This document shows positions 49,108 through 59,225 of a DNA stretch of 64,000 nt, one piece after another (position 1 is the stretch's first letter; every line of letters starts with the position of its first letter). Location of the stretch: contig NZ_CP139420.1 of the NCBI RefSeq assembly GCF_034119845.1, positions 2,396,001 through 2,460,000 of the forward strand, read 5' to 3'. The position numbers were made by a program, and so were the translations under genes. Under the pieces are notes generated by a model. It did no database searches and had not been told where the DNA came from. It worked only from the letters and a program-made list of their open reading frames with translations. The DNA comes from Flavobacterium sp. NG2 (GTDB lineage: Bacteria > Bacteroidota > Bacteroidia > Flavobacteriales > Flavobacteriaceae).

Positions 49108-52095
49108 ATGAAAGTATTTTTACCCACCTCCCGATTTTTGTTTATTGTTTTTTTTATTGCTAATTTGTTTGTTGTCAACTCTGTATTTGGACAGGCAACA
49201 GTAACAACAGATAAGGATGATTATGCTCCTGGTGAGTATGTTATTATTACAGGAACTGGTTGGTCACCAGGGGAAACTGTGAGTTTTCATTTTGATGAAA
49301 CCCCCAAACCAGCTACTTGTGTCAATTCGCATGATTTAGTCGCAATTGCGGATTCTAGTGGGAATATTTATAATGATCAGTTTTTGATAAAAGTAAATCA
49401 TATTGGAGTTACTTTTGTTTTGACAGCAACTGGTGAATCTTCGGGATTCATAGCCTATAGAACTTTTACAGATGGTAATGTTGGTTTTGGTCAAACGGGG
49501 GTGCCTGGTCAAAATATTAATATGACTGCAACTGTTACTTACACAAAAGCAACTACAAACACATTAGTAACAGAAACAATTACATTTAAAAATAATGGAA
49601 CAGAAACTGTTGGAGCTAAAGATGGTACTTCCATTTCATGGGTATTTAATCCAGTAACTGTAGGGACTATAACTTATTATTGGACAGGTGTTTCGTCATA
49701 TACGCAAGGTTTTAATATCGGAACATCAAATTATACGGGATCAAATGCAATAATTGGCACATATAGTGGTGTTTCTTCAACAAATTTATCAGTTAGTAGT
49801 GCTACAGGCACATATGGTGGTACAGTGGTACTAAGTGCCACGCTATCTTCTGGAACAACTAATCTTGATGGGAAAACTGTAAACTTCTCTCTGAATGGAA
49901 CCCTAGTAGGTTCAGCAGTAACGAATTCAAGTGGGGTTGCAACTTTAAGTAACGCCAGTTTAATAGGGATTAATGCATCAACATATCCCACTGGAGTAAC
50001 TGCTAGTTTCGCTGGCGATGCAAGTTATGCTGAGAGAAATGATAGTAATAGTTTGACAGTAAATGCAAAAGCCTTATTAATTACAGCCAATAATCAATCC
50101 AAAACCTATGGAGAGACAAAAGTGTTGGGAACTACAGCCTTTACAGCCCCTGCCTTGGAGAGTTTTGATGCTATTACAGGAGTATCCTTAAGCAGTACAG
50201 GATCTGTTAATACAGCTACAGTAGCAGGTTCTACTTATCCTATAGTTGCAAGTGCCGCCACAGGAACAGGCTTAGGGAATTATACCATTACCTATGCCGA
50301 TGGAGCGTTGACAGTAAATGCAAAAGCCTTATTAATTACAGCCAATAATCAATCCAAAACCTATGGAGAGACAAAAGTGTTGGGAACTACAGCCTTTACA
50401 GCCCCTGCCTTGGAGAGTTTTGATGCTATTACAGGAGTATCCTTAAGCAGTACAGGATCTGTTAATACAGCTACAGTAGCAGGTTCTACTTACCCTATAG
50501 TTGCAAGTGCCGCCACAGGAACAGGCTTAGGGAATTATACCATTACCTATGCCGATGGAGCGTTGACAGTAAATGCAAAAGCCTTATTAATTACAGCCAA
50601 TAATCAATCCAAAACCTATGGAGAGACAAAAGTGTTGGGAACTACAGCCTTTACAGCCCCTGCCTTGGAGAGTTTTGATGCTATTACAGGAGTATCCTTA
50701 AGCAGTACAGGATCTGTTAATACAGCTACAGTAGCAGGTTCTACTTACCCTATAGTTGCAAGTGCCGCCACAGGAACAGGCTTAGGAAATTATACCATTA
50801 CCTATGCCGATGGAGCGTTGACAGTAAATGCAAAAGCCTTATTAATTACAGCCAATAATCAATCCAAAACCTATGGAGAGACAAAAGTGTTGGGAACTAC
50901 AGCCTTTACAGCCCCTGCCTTGGAGAGTTTTGATGCTATTACAGGAGTATCCTTAAGCAGTACAGGATCTGTTAATACAGCTACAGTAGCAGGTTCTACT
51001 TACCCTATAGTTGCAAGTGCCGCCACAGGAACAGGCTTAGGGAATTATACCATTACCTATGCCGATGGAGCGTTGACAGTAAATGCAAAAGCCTTATTAA
51101 TTACAGCCAATAATCAATCCAAAACCTATGGAGAGACAAAAGTGTTGGGAACTACAGCCTTTACAGCCCCTGCCTTGGAGAGTTTTGATGCTATTACAGG
51201 AGTATCCTTAAGCAGTACAGGATCTGTTAATACAGCTACAGTAGCAGGTTCTACTTACCCTATAGTTGCAAGTGCCGCCACAGGAACAGGCTTAGGGAAT
51301 TATACCATTACCTATGCCGATGGAGCGTTGACAGTAAATGCAAAAGCCTTATTAATTACAGCCAATAATCAATCCAAAACCTATGGAGAGACAAAAGTGT
51401 TGGGAACTACAGCCTTTACAGCCCCTGCCTTGGAGAGTTTTGATGCTATTACAGGAGTATCCTTAAGCAGTACAGGATCTGTTAATACAGCTACAGTAGC
51501 AGGTTCTACTTACCCTATAGTTGCAAGTGCCGCCACAGGAACAGGCTTAGGGAATTATACCATTACCTATGCCGATGGAGCGTTGACAGTAAATGCAAAA
51601 GCCTTATTAATTACAGCCAATAATCAATCCAAAACCTATGGAGAGACAAAAGTGTTGGGAACTACAGCCTTTACAGCCCCTGCCTTGGAGAGTTTTGATG
51701 CTATTACAGGAGTATCCTTAAGCAGTACAGGATCTGTTAATACAGCTACAGTAGCAGGTTCTACTTACCCTATAGTTGCAAGTGCCGCCACAGGAACAGG
51801 CTTAGGGAATTATACCATTACCTATGCCGATGGAGCGTTGACAGTAAATGCAAAAGCCTTATTAATTACAGCCAATAATCAATCCAAAACCTATGGAGAG
51901 ACAAAAGTGTTGGGAACTACAGCCTTTACAGCCCCTGCCTTGGAGAGTTTTGATGCTATTACAGGAGTATCCTTAAGCAGTACAGGATCTGTTAATACAG
52001 CTACAGTAGCAGGTTCTACTTACCCTATAGTTGCAAGTGCCGCCACAGGAACAGGCTTAGGAATTATACCATTACCTATGCCGATGGAGCGTTGA
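49108..52095 (+). CDS. Giant T9SS adhesin-like protein, N-terminal part (frameshifted gene)
   Basis: 995 residues as read. It has a signal peptide (about 1-29, ending SVFGQ), a beta-rich domain (DKDDYAPGEYVIITGTGWSPGE, about 33-55), and an Ig-like domain (about 228-315, GTYGGTVVLSATLSSGTTNLD). From residue 316 come eight copies of an 85-residue MBG-type repeat (ALLITANNQSKTYGETKVLG...). In the eighth copy a base is missing at about 52060-52062, so the frame shifts and stops after GLGIIPLPMPMER. With the base restored the frame joins the next entry to give one protein of 2706 residues. The real gene is thus 49108-57227; phase variation, a loss-of-function mutation or an assembly error in the repeats could explain the break. 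Confidence 0.85.
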   Translation: MKVFLPTSRFLFIVFFIANLFVVNSVFGQATVTTDKDDYAPGEYVIITGTGWSPGETVSFHFDETPKPATCVNSHDLVAIADSSGNIYNDQFLIKVNHIGVTFVLTATGESSGFIAYRTFTDGNVGFGQTGVPGQNINMTATVTYTKATTNTLVTETITFKNNGTETVGAKDGTSISWVFNPVTVGTITYYWTGVSSYTQGFNIGTSNYTGSNAIIGTYSGVSSTNLSVSSATGTYGGTVVLSATLSSGTTNLDGKTVNFSLNGTLVGSAVTNSSGVATLSNASLIGINASTYPTGVTASFAGDASYAERNDSNSLTVNAKALLITANNQSKTYGETKVLGTTAFTAPALESFDAITGVSLSSTGSVNTATVAGSTYPIVASAATGTGLGNYTITYADGALTVNAKALLITANNQSKTYGETKVLGTTAFTAPALESFDAITGVSLSSTGSVNTATVAGSTYPIVASAATGTGLGNYTITYADGALTVNAKALLITANNQSKTYGETKVLGTTAFTAPALESFDAITGVSLSSTGSVNTATVAGSTYPIVASAATGTGLGNYTITYADGALTVNAKALLITANNQSKTYGETKVLGTTAFTAPALESFDAITGVSLSSTGSVNTATVAGSTYPIVASAATGTGLGNYTITYADGALTVNAKALLITANNQSKTYGETKVLGTTAFTAPALESFDAITGVSLSSTGSVNTATVAGSTYPIVASAATGTGLGNYTITYADGALTVNAKALLITANNQSKTYGETKVLGTTAFTAPALESFDAITGVSLSSTGSVNTATVAGSTYPIVASAATGTGLGNYTITYADGALTVNAKALLITANNQSKTYGETKVLGTTAFTAPALESFDAITGVSLSSTGSVNTATVAGSTYPIVASAATGTGLGNYTITYADGALTVNAKALLITANNQSKTYGETKVLGTTAFTAPALESFDAITGVSLSSTGSVNTATVAGSTYPIVASAATGTGLGIIPLPMPMER

Positions 52096-55000
52096 CAGTA
52101 AATGCAAAAGCCTTATTAATTACAGCCAATAATCAATCCAAAACCTATGGAGAGACAAAAGTGTTGGGAACTACAGCCTTTACAGCCCCTGCCTTGGAGA
52201 GTTTTGATGCTATTACAGGAGTATCCTTAAGCAGTACAGGATCTGTTAATACAGCTACAGTAGCAGGTTCTACTTACCCTATAGTTGCAAGTGCCGCCAC
52301 AGGAACAGGCTTAGGGAATTATACCATTACCTATGCCGATGGAGCGTTGACAGTAAATGCAAAAGCCTTATTAATTACAGCCAATAATCAATCCAAAACC
52401 TATGGAGAGACAAAAGTGTTGGGAACTACAGCCTTTACAGCCCCTGCCTTGGAGAGTTTTGATGCTATTACAGGAGTATCCTTAAGCAGTACAGGATCTG
52501 TTAATACAGCTACAGTAGCAGGTTCTACTTACCCTATAGTTGCAAGTGCCGCCACAGGAACAGGCTTAGGGAATTATACCATTACCTATGCCGATGGAGC
52601 GTTGACAGTAAATGCAAAAGCCTTATTAATTACAGCCAATAATCAATCCAAAACCTATGGAGAGACAAAAGTGTTGGGAACTACAGCCTTTACAGCCCCT
52701 GCCTTGGAGAGTTTTGATGCTATTACAGGAGTATCCTTAAGCAGTACAGGATCTGTTAATACAGCTACAGTAGCAGGTTCTACTTACCCTATAGTTGCAA
52801 GTGCCGCCACAGGAACAGGCTTAGGGAATTATACCATTACCTATGCCGATGGAGCGTTGACAGTAAATGCAAAAGCCTTATTAATTACAGCCAATAATCA
52901 ATCCAAAACCTATGGAGAGACAAAAGTGTTGGGAACTACAGCCTTTACAGCCCCTGCCTTGGAGAGTTTTGATGCTATTACAGGAGTATCCTTAAGCAGT
53001 ACAGGATCTGTTAATACAGCTACAGTAGCAGGTTCTACTTACCCTATAGTTGCAAGTGCCGCCACAGGAACAGGCTTAGGGAATTATACCATTACCTATG
53101 CCGATGGAGCGTTGACAGTAAATGCAAAAGCCTTATTAATTACAGCCAATAATCAATCCAAAACCTATGGAGAGACAAAAGTGTTGGGAACTACAGCCTT
53201 TACAGCCCCTGCCTTGGAGAGTTTTGATGCTATTACAGGAGTATCCTTAAGCAGTACAGGATCTGTTAATACAGCTACAGTAGCAGGTTCTACTTACCCT
53301 ATAGTTGCAAGTGCCGCCACAGGAACAGGCTTAGGGAATTATACCATTACCTATGCCGATGGAGCGTTGACAGTAAATGCAAAAGCCTTATTAATTACAG
53401 CCAATAATCAATCCAAAACCTATGGAGAGACAAAAGTGTTGGGAACTACAGCCTTTACAGCCCCTGCCTTGGAGAGTTTTGATGCTATTACAGGAGTATC
53501 CTTAAGCAGTACAGGATCTGTTAATACAGCTACAGTAGCAGGTTCTACTTACCCTATAGTTGCAAGTGCCGCCACAGGAACAGGCTTAGGGAATTATACC
53601 ATTACCTATGCCGATGGAGCGTTGACAGTAAATGCAAAAGCCTTATTAATTACAGCCAATAATCAATCCAAAACCTATGGAGAGACAAAAGTGTTGGGAA
53701 CTACAGCCTTTACAGCCCCTGCCTTAGAGAGTTTTGATGCTATTACAGGAGTATCCTTAAGCAGTACAGGATCTGTTAATACAGCTACAGTAGCAGGTTC
53801 TACTTACCCTATAGTTGCAAGTGCCGCCACAGGAACAGGCTTAGGGAATTATACCATTACCTATGCCGATGGAGCGTTGACAGTAAATGCAAAAGCCTTA
53901 TTAATTACAGCCAATAATCAATCCAAAACCTATGGAGAGACAAAAGTGTTGGGAACTACAGCCTTTACAGCCCCTGCCTTGGAGAGTTTTGATGCTATTA
54001 CAGGAGTATCCTTAAGCAGTACAGGATCTGTTAATACAGCTACAGTAGCAGGTTCTACTTACCCTATAGTTGCAAGTGCCGCCACAGGAACAGGCTTAGG
54101 AAATTATACCATTACCTATGCCGATGGAGCGTTGACAGTAAATGCAAAAGCCTTATTAATTACAGCCAATAATCAATCCAAAACCTATGGAGAGACAAAA
54201 GTGTTGGGAACTACAGCCTTTACAGCCCCTGCCTTGGAGAGTTTTGATGCTATTACAGGAGTATCCTTAAGCAGTACAGGATCTGTTAATACAGCTACAG
54301 TAGCAGGTTCTACTTACCCTATAGTTGCAAGTGCCGCCACAGGAACAGGCTTAGGGAATTATACCATTACCTATGCCGATGGAGCGTTGACAGTAAATGC
54401 AAAAGCCTTATTAATTACAGCCAATAATCAATCCAAAACCTATGGAGAGACAAAAGTGTTGGGAACTACAGCCTTTACAGCCCCTGCCTTAGAGAGTTTT
54501 GATGCTATTACAGGAGTATCCTTAAGCAGTACAGGATCTGTTAATACAGCTACAGTAGCAGGTTCTACTTACCCTATAGTTGCAAGTGCCGCCACAGGAA
54601 CAGGCTTAGGGAATTATACCATTACCTATGCCGATGGAGCGTTGACAGTAAATGCAAAAGCCTTATTAATTACAGCCAATAATCAATCCAAAACCTATGG
54701 AGAGACAAAAGTGTTGGGAACTACAGCCTTTACAGCCCCTGCCTTAGAGAGTTTTGATGCTATTACAGGAGTATCCTTAAGCAGTACAGGATCTGTTAAT
54801 ACAGCTACAGTAGCAGGTTCTACTTACCCTATAGTTGCAAGTGCCGCCACAGGAACAGGCTTAGGGAATTATACTATTACCTATGCCGATGGAGCGTTGA
54901 CAGTAAATGCAAAAGCCTTATTAATTACAGCCAATAATCAATCCAAAACCTATGGAGAGACAAAAGTGTTGGGAACTACAGCCTTTACAGCCCCTGCCTT

Positions 55001-55406
55001 GGAGAGTTTTGATGCTATTACAGGAGTATCCTTAAGCAGTACAGGATCTGTTAATACAGCTACAGTAGCAGGTTCTACTTACCCTATAGTTGCAAGTGCC
55101 GCCACAGGAACAGGCTTAGGGAATTATACCATTACCTATGCCGATGGAGCGTTGACAGTAAATGCAAAAGCCTTATTAATTACAGCCAATAATCAATCCA
55201 AAACCTATGGAGAGACAAAAGTGTTGGGAACTACAGCCTTTACAGCCCCTGCCTTGGAGAGTTTTGATGCTATTACAGGAGTATCCTTAAGCAGTACAGG
55301 ATCTGTTAATACAGCTACAGTAGCAGGTTCTACTTACCCTATAGTTGCAAGTGCCGCCACAGGAACAGGCTTAGGGAATTATACCATTACCTATGCCGAT
55401 GGAGCG
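50053..55406 (+). repeat. Array of 21 nearly identical 255-bp repeats encoding MBG domains
   Basis: Period 255 bases (85 codons), 21 units from 50053 to 55406, one of them one base short. Units differ by only a handful of substitutions, for example Gly GGA for GGG near 50787 and 54100, Leu TTA for TTG near 53727, 54491 and 54742, Thr ACT for ACC near 54875, and Tyr TAT in unit 1. All that I checked are synonymous; the only exception is the one-base deletion in unit 8. The array therefore expanded recently or is kept uniform by recombination. Confidence 0.97.
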
Positions 55407-57227
55407 TTGACAGTAAATGCAAAAGCCTTATTAATATCTGCAACTGGAATTAATAAAGTATACGATGGTAATACAATAGCAACAGTTTCTTTGAGTGACA
55501 ACCGTTTTAGCTGGGATGCATTGACTTTGACGACAGCATATACTACTGCAAATTTTGCAAATGAGAATATAGGTACATGGAATGTTTCGGTAACAGGAAT
55601 TAGTATCAGTGGAGTATCTGCAGGGAATTATAACTTGGTAAATACAATCGCAAGTACTTCTGCTACTATAAGTACTTCTCCGACATCTATTACAACTATA
55701 GTATTACCAAATCCAGTTCAATATTCAGACAAAGTGACCATGGTAGCATCGGTAACTTCGGCTACGGCACAGGCGCAATTGAATGCACATGGTGGTACAG
55801 TTGAATTTAAATTGAAATCTTCTGGAGGTATCGTAACAAGTTTAGGAACTTCGTTACTTTCAGATTTTAATAATAGTGACGGTACTGTTTCGAAGCAATT
55901 TACCATGTTGTATGCTCCGGGAACATATACAATCATAGCGGTGTTTAGTCCTGCAACAACTAATTTTACAGGTGTAACAAATTGGAACTGTGGTTCTCTA
56001 ACAATAATACAAGAAGACGCCAGAGCAGAATTTACTGGAACTGACATTGTAGCGACCCAAAGTGCTTCTAGTAGTATTGCTGTTATTGAATTAAGGGCTA
56101 CTATTCAGGATATAACAGCTACATCAGAGGCTTCGGGAGATGCTGATTTTGGAGATATACGAAAAGCAAAAGTTAGGTTTTTAAATGATAATGTTCCAAT
56201 TGTTATTGATGGTCTGACAGATATTAATGGCTGGGTATTAAATCCAATTGCATTAGTAAATGCAAGCGACACAAAAACAGGGACTATTTCCGTATCTTGG
56301 CCAGTTAATATTGGAAGTATGACTTCAATGGATTACACAATCGGTATTGAAGTAGGAGGCTATTATAAAAGAAACTCTTCGGAAGACAATGTAGTAATCA
56401 CTGTGTATAAACCTACTGGAGATTTTATTACAGGAGGAGGATATATTGTACCTACGCAATCAGCAGGAAGTTATGCTTCTGATGCAGGTAGAAAAACTAA
56501 TTTTGGGTTTAATGTTAAATACAATAAATCAGGGAAAAGTTTGCAAGGGAATATGAATTTTATTTTCCGTAGAACTGTTGCAGGTGTTGTTAAAGTGTAT
56601 CAAGTAAAATCAAATGCAATGCAATCTTTAGGAGTTAATATTTCAAATGCCAGTGCAAAAACAGCAGTGTTTGTTTCAAAATGTAACTTAAAAGATATAA
56701 CGGACCCTGTAAATCCTATTTCTTTAGGAGGAGGTTTGTTAATGCAAGTAAACATGGTTGATAAGGGAGAACCAGGGAATATGGATGAAATTGGTTTTTC
56801 TTTATATGATGGTAATACATTGTTGTACTCTAGTAATTGGGTTAGTAGTAATACTATTAAGAAGATATTGTCGGGTGGGAATTTAGTTGTTCATAGTGGA
56901 TTTAGTGTTGGGACTGTAACTTCAAAAGTAGATTTTTCTAAATCAGAATTAATTGAAGAAGGTGAAGTAGATAATCAAAAAGTTGAATTAAATGTTGTAG
57001 CATACCCGATTCCTACGAATGATGTGTTTAATATTGAAATTCAAGGGGCTAATAATGATTCGAATGTTAGTATTAGAATAGTTGATATGTTAGGTAAATT
57101 AATATATACAACAACTGGTAATAATGTTCAGAATTATAGTTTCGGAAATCATTTTCCTTCGGGAACTTACATTATGCAAGTAATTGTAGACTCTAAAATA
57201 TTTACTTCAAAAATTATTAAAAATTAG
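52092..57227 (+). CDS. Giant T9SS adhesin-like protein, C-terminal part (frameshifted gene)
   Basis: Continuation of the gene that starts at 49108; this frame opens with a TTG inside repeat 9 and is not an independent start. It has 13 further 85-residue MBG repeats, then a YDG-type domain (INKVYDGNTIATVSLSDNRF, about 1106-1195), an Ig-like domain (about 1195-1290), a post-COAP-1-like beta domain (ARAEFTGTDIVATQSASSSI to GDFITGGGYIVPTQSAGSY), and a type A T9SS sorting domain at the end (VAYPIPTNDVFNIEI, IRIVDMLGKLIYT, FPSGTYIMQVIVDSKIFTSK). The product is expected to be secreted and attached to the surface, perhaps for adhesion or matrix formation. Confidence 0.85.
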   Translation: MTVNAKALLITANNQSKTYGETKVLGTTAFTAPALESFDAITGVSLSSTGSVNTATVAGSTYPIVASAATGTGLGNYTITYADGALTVNAKALLITANNQSKTYGETKVLGTTAFTAPALESFDAITGVSLSSTGSVNTATVAGSTYPIVASAATGTGLGNYTITYADGALTVNAKALLITANNQSKTYGETKVLGTTAFTAPALESFDAITGVSLSSTGSVNTATVAGSTYPIVASAATGTGLGNYTITYADGALTVNAKALLITANNQSKTYGETKVLGTTAFTAPALESFDAITGVSLSSTGSVNTATVAGSTYPIVASAATGTGLGNYTITYADGALTVNAKALLITANNQSKTYGETKVLGTTAFTAPALESFDAITGVSLSSTGSVNTATVAGSTYPIVASAATGTGLGNYTITYADGALTVNAKALLITANNQSKTYGETKVLGTTAFTAPALESFDAITGVSLSSTGSVNTATVAGSTYPIVASAATGTGLGNYTITYADGALTVNAKALLITANNQSKTYGETKVLGTTAFTAPALESFDAITGVSLSSTGSVNTATVAGSTYPIVASAATGTGLGNYTITYADGALTVNAKALLITANNQSKTYGETKVLGTTAFTAPALESFDAITGVSLSSTGSVNTATVAGSTYPIVASAATGTGLGNYTITYADGALTVNAKALLITANNQSKTYGETKVLGTTAFTAPALESFDAITGVSLSSTGSVNTATVAGSTYPIVASAATGTGLGNYTITYADGALTVNAKALLITANNQSKTYGETKVLGTTAFTAPALESFDAITGVSLSSTGSVNTATVAGSTYPIVASAATGTGLGNYTITYADGALTVNAKALLITANNQSKTYGETKVLGTTAFTAPALESFDAITGVSLSSTGSVNTATVAGSTYPIVASAATGTGLGNYTITYADGALTVNAKALLITANNQSKTYGETKVLGTTAFTAPALESFDAITGVSLSSTGSVNTATVAGSTYPIVASAATGTGLGNYTITYADGALTVNAKALLITANNQSKTYGETKVLGTTAFTAPALESFDAITGVSLSSTGSVNTATVAGSTYPIVASAATGTGLGNYTITYADGALTVNAKALLISATGINKVYDGNTIATVSLSDNRFSWDALTLTTAYTTANFANENIGTWNVSVTGISISGVSAGNYNLVNTIASTSATISTSPTSITTIVLPNPVQYSDKVTMVASVTSATAQAQLNAHGGTVEFKLKSSGGIVTSLGTSLLSDFNNSDGTVSKQFTMLYAPGTYTIIAVFSPATTNFTGVTNWNCGSLTIIQEDARAEFTGTDIVATQSASSSIAVIELRATIQDITATSEASGDADFGDIRKAKVRFLNDNVPIVIDGLTDINGWVLNPIALVNASDTKTGTISVSWPVNIGSMTSMDYTIGIEVGGYYKRNSSEDNVVITVYKPTGDFITGGGYIVPTQSAGSYASDAGRKTNFGFNVKYNKSGKSLQGNMNFIFRRTVAGVVKVYQVKSNAMQSLGVNISNASAKTAVFVSKCNLKDITDPVNPISLGGGLLMQVNMVDKGEPGNMDEIGFSLYDGNTLLYSSNWVSSNTIKKILSGGNLVVHSGFSVGTVTSKVDFSKSELIEEGEVDNQKVELNVVAYPIPTNDVFNIEIQGANNDSNVSIRIVDMLGKLIYTTTGNNVQNYSFGNHFPSGTYIMQVIVDSKIFTSKIIKN

Positions 57228-57249
57228 ATGGTAGATAAAATAATGATCA

Positions 57250-57279
57250 AAACCAGTTCAAGTAATTTTGAGCTGGTTT
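57250..57279 (+). terminator. Intrinsic terminator of the adhesin gene
   Basis: Twelve-base arms with one G-T pair (AAACCAGTTCAA and TTGAGCTGGTTT) followed by a T run, 23 bases after the stop codon. Confidence 0.85.
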
Positions 57280-57292
57280 TTTTATATAAAAA

Positions 57293-57312
57293 AAGCACTA
57301 AAATTAGTGCTT
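57293..57312 (-). terminator. Intrinsic terminator of cysM
   Basis: Nine-base perfect arms AAGCACTAA/TTAGTGCTT around AA, with a T run on the minus-strand 3' side, 23 bases after the cysM stop. Confidence 0.85.
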
Positions 57313-57335
57313 AGATTTTGAGTTGTAATTTCATA

Positions 57336-58223
57336 TCAATCAAACAAATCCGAAGATAAATATCGGTCTCCACGATCACAGATGATAGCTACAACCACAC
57401 CAGATTCTAGTTGGTTGGCAATTTTTACGGCTACAGCTACAGAGCCACCGCTACTCATTCCGGCGAAGACGCCTTCTTCAAGAGCGAGACGCTTGGTCAT
57501 TTCGCGTGCTTCAGCTTCAGAGATATCGATGGTTTGATCTACTTTTGAAGGATTGAATATTTTTGGTAAATATTCTTGTGGCCATTTACGGATTCCTGGA
57601 ATTTGAGAACCTTCGCTAGGTTGTGCTCCTATGATTTGAATTGCTGGATTCTTTTCTTTTAAAAATGTCGAAGTTCCCATGATGGTTCCTGTAGTTCCCA
57701 TTGCGGATACAAAATGAGTAATGCTACCTTCAGTATCTCTCCAAATTTCTGGACCAGTGGTGTTGTAATGCGCTTTCCAGTTGTCTTCATTCGCAAATTG
57801 ATTGAGCATAATGTAACCGCCTTCGGCTACTTTTTTGTCGGCATAATCTCTAGAACCGATGATTCCTTCTTTGGCAGAAGTCAAGATTACAGTTGCGCCA
57901 TAGGCACGCATGGTTTGAGTGCGTTCTTTGGTTGAATCTTCAGGAAGGATTAATTCGATTTCAATGCCAAGTAATTGTGCAATCATCGCTAAAGCAATTC
58001 CAGTGTTCCCACTCGTGGCTTCTATTAATTTGTCTCCTTTTTTGATTTCACCACGGTCAAGAGCGCCTTTAATCATATAATAAGCGGCTCTATCTTTGAC
58101 ACTGCCGCCAGGGTTATTTCCTTCTAGTTTTAAAAGGAGTTTTACATTTTTATTTTGTACTAAATTGACTGTTTCAACAAGTGGAGTGTTTCCTATTAAG
58201 TCAACTAATTTTTGAGGTTTCAT
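57336..58223 (-). CDS. cysM: Cysteine synthase (CysM type)
   Basis: PLP enzyme that forms cysteine from O-acetylserine and sulfide, or thiosulfate in the CysM group. 295 residues. The PLP lysine is in NNPGGSVKDRAAYYM, the substrate loop is EATSGNTGIALAMIAQ, and the phosphate site is AMGTTGTIMGTSTFLKEKNP; the C-terminal CDRGDRYLSSDLF is typical. The short length and KWPQEYLPKIF stretch favour CysM over CysK. It lies 41 bases downstream of cysE and ends at a strong terminator, so the pair makes cysteine from serine as one operon. Confidence 0.95.
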   Translation of the reverse strand: MKPQKLVDLIGNTPLVETVNLVQNKNVKLLLKLEGNNPGGSVKDRAAYYMIKGALDRGEIKKGDKLIEATSGNTGIALAMIAQLLGIEIELILPEDSTKERTQTMRAYGATVILTSAKEGIIGSRDYADKKVAEGGYIMLNQFANEDNWKAHYNTTGPEIWRDTEGSITHFVSAMGTTGTIMGTSTFLKEKNPAIQIIGAQPSEGSQIPGIRKWPQEYLPKIFNPSKVDQTIDISEAEAREMTKRLALEEGVFAGMSSGGSVAVAVKIANQLESGVVVAIICDRGDRYLSSDLFD

Positions 58224-59056: not shown

Positions 59057-59096
59057 GATTATAAAAGTTTAAAAGGTGAAAGAAAATGTAAATTCA

Positions 59097-59119
59097 TGCT
59101 GTAATTTTTAGCAACAGCA
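59097..59119 (-). promoter_or_regulatory. Hairpin between Cys codons and the cysE 5' region
   Basis: TGCTGT within the polycysteine codons (59114-59119) is complementary to ACAGCA (59097-59102) in the spacer before cysE, with an 11-base loop containing the leader stop. A ribosome stalled on the Cys codons would keep this hairpin open. No T-run terminator is visible before cysE, so the mechanism may act on translation or mRNA stability. Confidence 0.5.
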
Positions 59120-59185
59120 ACAACAATGACACAATGGAGTTTGTGAATTGAAAGAGAATGAATCTTGTGAATAGTTGATTTGCAT
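59108..59185 (-). CDS. Polycysteine leader peptide upstream of cysE-cysM
   Basis: A 25-codon reading frame on the minus strand. It begins MQINYSQDSFSF and ends TPLCHCCCCC just before a TAA stop, so six of the last seven codons are Cys, a very rare residue in bacterial proteins. The ATG lies about 26 bases after a predicted transcription start, and the stop is 51 bases before cysE. By analogy with the trp leader in this window and with polycysteine leader peptides known upstream of sulfur genes in mycobacteria, I infer that ribosome progress through the Cys codons senses cysteinyl-tRNA. Function is inferred; the reading frame and composition are direct. Confidence 0.8.
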   Translation of the reverse strand: MQINYSQDSFSFNSQTPLCHCCCCC

Positions 59186-59217
59186 TTTTGAAATGATTTT
59201 TCGGTAATTATGCTTCA

Positions 59218-59225
59218 CAAATATA
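59218..59225 (-). promoter_or_regulatory. -7 box of the cys operon
   Basis: TATATTTG on the minus strand, 32 bases before the polycysteine leader ATG; a perfect consensus match. The -33 element is weak. Confidence 0.65.

Follow-up and report, generated by a model that had tools for sequence, protein, structure and literature searches.

A candidate cysteine-sensing leader peptide ahead of cysE-cysM, or of cysM alone, in Flavobacterium

The stretch of DNA analysed here, which is referred to as the window, comprises 64,000 nucleotides from Flavobacterium sp. NG2 and carries, on its minus strand, the cysteine biosynthesis genes cysE and, next after it, cysM (Table 1). CysE matches serine O-acetyltransferase models, at scores below their cut-offs (154.6 bits against 210.65 for TIGR01172, and 149.9 bits against 150 for the EpsC model). 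A short open reading frame (ORF) ends 51 nt ahead of the cysE start codon and lies behind a perfect -7 box, TAnnTTTG being the -7 consensus of Bacteroidetes promoters. The original prediction of a minus-strand frame with six Cys among its last seven codons, placed behind this box and directly upstream of cysE-cysM, was confirmed in coordinates, translation and gene order. The leader ATG comes 40 nt after the first base of the box; in ten such leaders the ATG lies 22-30 nt past the transcription start, the position of which is an assumption. The stretch around the box, TTCAAAATAGTTCAATATNTTTG, is conserved upstream of cysE or cysM in relatives, the copy in the window being two bases off.

A mini-ORF, MNLHFLSPFKLL, lies between the leader and cysE; its ATG overlaps ACAGCATG, and 2 nt separate its stop codon from the cysE ATG. 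It is present in the window only and, by eye, is absent from the related loci L010, L043 and L341. A terminator search of the window found no terminator-like site between leader and cysE, in agreement with what had been noted from the sequence. An Rfam scan, which included the uORFC-8-2 motif, gave four matches, all at 57237-57339, all below the gathering score and none at the leader. On the other strand, positions 52092-57227 hold an exceptionally long ORF in which a near-identical repeat (ALLITANNQSKTYGETK and so on) recurs many times and whose C-terminal end resembles a secretion sorting domain.

Table 1. Features of the cysE-cysM locus, by position in the window
Feature	Positions	Strand	Basis or remark
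Leader ORF, 25 codons, MQINYSQDSFSFNSQTPLCHCCCCC	59108..59185	-	ATG at 59185, TAA at 59108
Cys-rich leader end CHCCCCC, proposed sensor of charged tRNA-Cys	59111..59131	-	6 of the last 7 codons are Cys
-7 promoter box TATATTTG, perfect	59218..59225	-	sequence; TAnnTTTG consensus
cysE, serine O-acetyltransferase, 263 aa	58265..59056	-	profile matches below cut-offs
cysM, cysteine synthase B, 295 aa	57336..58223	-	passes NCBIfam cut-off
Terminator-like hairpin and T run, 3′ of cysM	57293..57312	-	terminator search
Complementarity of TGCTGT (59119-59114) and ACAGCA (59102-59097)	59097..59119	-	not above shuffles, not conserved
Mini-ORF MNLHFLSPFKLL, 12 codons, possible relay ORF	59059..59097	-	read by eye

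Conservation of the frame and of its Cys codons in relatives had been set beforehand as the test of the prediction, and 25 leaders were found at the same place: in 12 Flavobacterium genomes ahead of cysE-cysM, in 10 ahead of cysM alone, in two of another genus and in one of another family. The suggested sensing role gains support from the distribution of Cys in these leaders: 105 of the 200 codons in the last eight positions are Cys, against 0 of the 327 codons elsewhere. Cys stands at codon -5 in 22, at -4 in 23, at -3 in 23 and at -2 in 20 of the 25. Ten cysE leaders vary over most of the peptide, yet every one has Cys at codons -4 and -5 counted from the stop; outside the Cys run both sequence and length (15-27 codons) vary freely. 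All 14 cysE leaders stop 46-52 nt ahead of the cysE start codon; the spacer is 71-97 nt ahead of cysM, and 76 nt ahead of the SAT gene in genome G038. In two respects the arrangement is what a Cys-codon leader peptide (a ribosome-mediated attenuator in the broad sense) would show: a short ORF with Cys codons lies directly 5′ of a cysteine gene, and the Cys codons are kept where the remaining peptide is variable. At codons -5 to -2 the exact pattern TGT TGT TGC TGT is favoured, and this preference in the third letter possibly reflects a constraint on the RNA besides decoding, or shared ancestry.

Leaders were defined as ATG-started ORFs with at least three Cys within the last eight codons. By this definition, 8 of the 114 rows (duplicates included) of a first set of regions upstream of cysE have a leader, four of them among the 80 best-matching named loci: Flavobacterium sp. 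MLJ.10 (L042), F. sp. UMI-01 (L044), F. muglaense (L045) and F. gillisiae (L064). A leader was present in four rows of 60 further upstream regions, one of these being the F. muglaense peptide again. Examples of the peptides are MLQRTTTHLSPSHIELILCCCCC, MSTDNKHLLPHYILQISLYKCCCCL, MNNRQLRFYFKISISLGNCCCCF and MSNSQLIFNLNVSNSYWNCCCHY. Many relatives with the same operon are without the leader, including the one whose cysE is nearest (L009/L038, 89% identical). One group keeps the promoter stretch at only 61-70 nt ahead of cysE. A large group, class D, has mostly GTG starts and a TTACTTTTA box near the gene, with neither promoter stretch nor leader; F. johnsoniae (L096) belongs to it. Remnants are seen in L193 (ending in GNYCCCF before the stop, start codon absent), in L021 (stop lost) and in L043 (ending in HCC before the stop), and within class D, again with no start, in L213 (NCCCNF and stop) and L200 (NCCGNF and stop). 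In class D rows, at loci L048-L117, a common box, TTTCTAAAAACRCCTTACTTTTA, resembles the sequence that surrounds and follows the leader stop of L042, L013 and L389; the promoter may have shifted to where the old leader ended.

In a tree of cysE-cysM from 64 loci, rooted at the midpoint, a single branch separates the 35 class D rows from all others, and the short form needs two changes. To explain the ten leader rows, seven gains or losses are required, five of them forced by well-supported branches. These rows, interspersed with decayed and leaderless ones, are found to either side of the midpoint root, and the two forks next to that root are weak (SH-aLRT 28). Since promoter, spacing and Cys run are common to the leaders, we read this as an ancestral leader that was lost or decayed several times, repeated gain being a formal alternative.

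A scan of 398 genomes of the genus for the promoter stretch TTCAAAATAGTTCAATATNTTTG, with up to two mismatches, found it in 38. Among these, 12 have an intact leader with cysE-cysM, 10 an intact leader with cysM alone, three a decayed leader and 11 none, and two have sites elsewhere only; two genomes with a good site have a second, unrelated one as well. The promoter stretch was also considered as a marker of a regulon and was rejected, as its 11 other places in the genome of the window (up to three mismatches) are identical copies of one repeat. This repeat, GTCAAAATAGTTTAATATGTTTT, which occurs in eleven identical copies across genome G000 (loci L310-L320), is probably a dispersed repeat. 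In the wider family Flavobacteriaceae, 147 genomes have a serine acetyltransferase match; in the 50 whose upstream regions were read, a leader is present in two, both of genus g109 (MFSNKQQNTFHALLQYSLLRCCCCF and MLATQTYQITSFTTQYSLCDCRCCF), and 48 are without. In the one genome examined from another family, MIRINYTYYFSCCCC precedes an acetyltransferase-cysteine synthase pair. The peptide end CCCCF-stop occurs at 32 places in 319 genomes of the family, and the 30 places read comprise one clear leader (again in g109), the doubtful L378, L379 without an ATG, and 27 over long frames. In L378 (MSFCCCCF-stop) and L379, which belong to two genera, CCCCF-stop lies 42-44 nt ahead of a similar 145-aa gene, which looks like one for a MarR regulator, and a frame of roughly 100 aa overlaps it; only L378 has the ATG.

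A chance or neutral TGY repeat that lies ahead of cysE and has no function could be argued from the nearest relatives, which lack the leader, and from the genome itself, which has 49 matches to four consecutive TGY codons. However, of the 30 such matches read, an in-frame ATG precedes only two rows, both being the leader site, and the other 28 are without one. Five consecutive TGY codons occur at six sites in the genome, and the leader site is the only one where a short ORF begins with ATG and lies clear of longer frames, the other five being inside or against longer frames or without an ATG. In 4000 dinucleotide shuffles of each of ten leader regions, a short ORF carrying CCC among its final eight codons arose 3 times in 40,000, and nine of the ten real leaders have one (the exception, L011, has CCRC). 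A search for four TGY codons followed by TAA in 395 genomes of the order gave, among the matches listed (30 loci read), coding matches only; TGY-run matches elsewhere lie over long frames in 30 of 30 and, for the CCCCF-stop places, 27 of 30 sampled, none of those being leader-like. With 25 counterparts at matching positions, conservation contradicts a neutral repeat, and we regard it as having hardly any likelihood. A functional small Cys-rich peptide, rather than a cis-acting leader, is very improbable too: runs of Cys can bind metal, and a role in, e.g., metal or thiol binding is conceivable on such general grounds, but the free variation of sequence and length outside the Cys run, and the constant attachment of the ORF to cysE or cysM, argue against it.

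As the Cys codons are kept and little else of the peptide is, translation of the leader probably measures the supply of cysteine and sets the expression of cysE-cysM. That the ORF is a cysteine-sensing leader peptide of this operon is therefore the reading preferred here, at a probability of about 0.88 from comparison of sequences. How the signal might be passed to the genes was approached through base pairing.

For the cysE form, the Cys codons had been predicted to pair with a segment between leader and cysE (TGCTGT with ACAGCA). The complementarity is present in the window; its significance was not upheld, for it is not kept in relatives and the hairpin does not exceed shuffles (z -0.32, p 0.34 at L008, where the Cys codons against the whole spacer likewise give p 0.34). 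No conserved pairing was found between Cys codons and the segment after the stop in 11 leaders (Stouffer -0.57), nor, the window included, between Cys codons and the cysE start beyond chance (Fisher p 0.22 with G-U pairs, 0.32 without), the exceptions being a three-member clade, L294-L296, with 9-11 contiguous pairs to positions -21 to -11 of cysE, and L042, where eight pairs link the Cys codons to the cysE start region. Six segment pairs were then compared post hoc in ten cysE leaders, and the first 30 nt of the leader against its own Cys codons gave a Stouffer value of -6.0 in this post hoc comparison (10 of 10 negative, 6 of 10 with p<0.05), own partners pairing better than swapped ones (P 0.033). 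This pairing held up poorly on new leaders, with -0.13 over nine; a retest that used each distinct start once, within somewhat altered bounds, gave -1.81 for four cysE leaders, -1.35 for six cysM leaders and +1.65 for G038. The signal is weak. Taken whole, leader regions give a slightly stronger fold than their shuffles (mean z -1.29 for 11, against -0.12 for 18 class D controls). A small TAATC/GATTA hairpin at the cysE start codon was discarded as a feature of the leader, because it is present in leaderless class D loci as well as in loci with a leader and is thus not leader-specific.

In the cysM-only form, the leaders are shorter, with 17 codons from a nearer ATG (e.g. MSLNYKNIPFCYCCCCF). 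These loci and the window have a common upstream neighbour, a short ORF with CLGCGFQRS, which identifies them as the same locus with cysE missing between leader and cysM; the leader thus accompanies promoter and cysM even in the absence of cysE. Here AAAAYAGCA, at the cysM AUG, has its complement in TGCTGTTTT, within the last Cys codons, in all ten leaders, which are related to one another. Pairing extends to 87 of 100 cells, against 38-68 in controls slid by 1-3, and seven of the ten positions are paired in all ten leaders; one of these is G-C in five, G-U in four and A-U in one, and there is one two-sided change, from G-C to A-U. The cysM start site is predicted to be more accessible with the Cys codons masked in nine of the ten (0.62-0.94, against 0.24-0.63 unmasked), and hardly more so in L333. 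Shuffles discriminate weakly in this form (Stouffer -2.6, p<0.05 in 1 of 10), and the Fisher value is 0.077 with G-U pairs and 0.0018 with Watson-Crick pairs only; an A-rich start site and a T-rich Cys run limit the power of such tests, and the ten leaders are close relatives. It is plausible that in the cysM form the Cys codons, by pairing with the start site, act as a direct switch, one that is not general to the cysE form. In seven of the cysM-only loci (L323, L343, L344, L346, L349, L355 and L356), an alignment of the spacers displays a hairpin-like inverted repeat, TTGTAAT...ATTACAA with variation, which lies between leader stop and cysM and ends about 20 nt 5′ of the gene.

We infer the following course from the sequences. 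Transcription would begin a few bases past the -7 box, and a ribosome would translate the leader. With ample charged tRNA-Cys, it would pass the Cys codons, terminate and depart, after which the messenger around these codons would again become unfavourable for expressing the following gene. A shortage of cysteine would make the ribosome wait at the Cys codons and cover the end of the leader, and expression would rise. A classical attenuator would have an intrinsic terminator, and from leader to gene there is no hairpin with a T run, so that control probably targets translation of the gene that follows, through accessibility of its start site. Taken together, the pairing results, the weakness of the shuffle tests and the relatedness of the ten leaders make translation the likeliest target and direct pairing with the start site a good lead; that control acts on translation of the downstream gene is probable, at moderate confidence, with Rho-dependent termination or messenger stability as alternative targets. 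In Bacteroidota, translation initiation is said to do without Shine-Dalgarno pairing. Perhaps the Cys run is sensor and blocker in one, a tentative proposal in which the TGCTGTTTT bases would hold the next gene's start site in a duplex and a ribosome awaiting charged tRNA-Cys would directly free it; such a switch would need no terminator, no sequestration of a Shine-Dalgarno sequence and no separate antisense segment. In the window, TGCTGT faces ACAGCATG at the start of the relay ORF, and the switch would therefore act on cysE via coupled translation. If true, it would be at its plainest in the cysM-only lineage.

The same sensor could instead govern Rho-dependent attenuation, the spacer being open to Rho after read-through and masked by a stalled ribosome. 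Each spacer of 46-52 nt has between 9 and 15 C and at most three G, the genome has a rho gene, and an equivalent proposal exists for the Cys leaders of Actinobacteria (PMC1262725). However, the last 48 nt before the leaderless class D cysE are equally rich in C and poor in G (8-13 C and 0-3 G, 18 loci), so that this composition is not special to leaders, and we consider Rho rather unlikely. Less likely still is that a stalled ribosome stabilises the 5′ end of the messenger, or that the relay ORF feeds cysE. The relay ORF exists in the window, and the cysE form is without terminator and without conserved hairpin, as such an output would allow; but the absence of this ORF from the three related loci named above speaks against it.

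Leaders with runs of Cys codons have been described for the cys operons of Mycobacterium and Propionibacterium acnes and for cbs of Bifidobacterium longum (Seliverstov et al. 2005, PMC1262725). The leaders reported here are like those in being short ORFs with a Cys run near the stop, cysteine genes next and no conserved terminator, but they belong to Bacteroidota, have a -7 TAnnTTTG promoter and precede cysE-cysM or cysM. Mycobacterial polycysteine attenuators, encoded by leaderless short ORFs, were cysteine-responsive when tested (Canestrari et al. 2020, via PMC9031893 and PMC13236596). There, too, contiguous Cys codons lie 5′ of cysteine operons, and the cysteine-dependent control is termed translation attenuation; whereas the mycobacterial ORFs are leaderless, those in Flavobacterium are predicted to have their ATG downstream of the assumed start. 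In Rhodobacterales, the uORFC-8-2 motif likewise places an upstream ORF, with two tandem Cys codons, ahead of a cysteine-related gene, cysS, although it has two stems and an intrinsic terminator (PMC8632094), the latter not being found here. Within the genus itself, leader-peptide attenuation was deduced upstream of amino-acid operons from the transcriptome of Flavobacterium psychrophilum, there with structured 5′ regions (PMC9723704); the absence of Shine-Dalgarno sequences is mentioned in that paper, and cysE and cysM do not occur in its main text. Searches of open-licence full texts gave no Cys leader from Bacteroidota. If the preferred reading is true, cysteine-sensing leader peptides would be present in a third bacterial phylum, having arrived there by their own route, and the sensing would take place in bacteria that are said not to rely on Shine-Dalgarno sequences. 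Because leaders that are intact, decayed or lost occur naturally at one operon of one genus, and in both gene arrangements, reporters can address the question directly.
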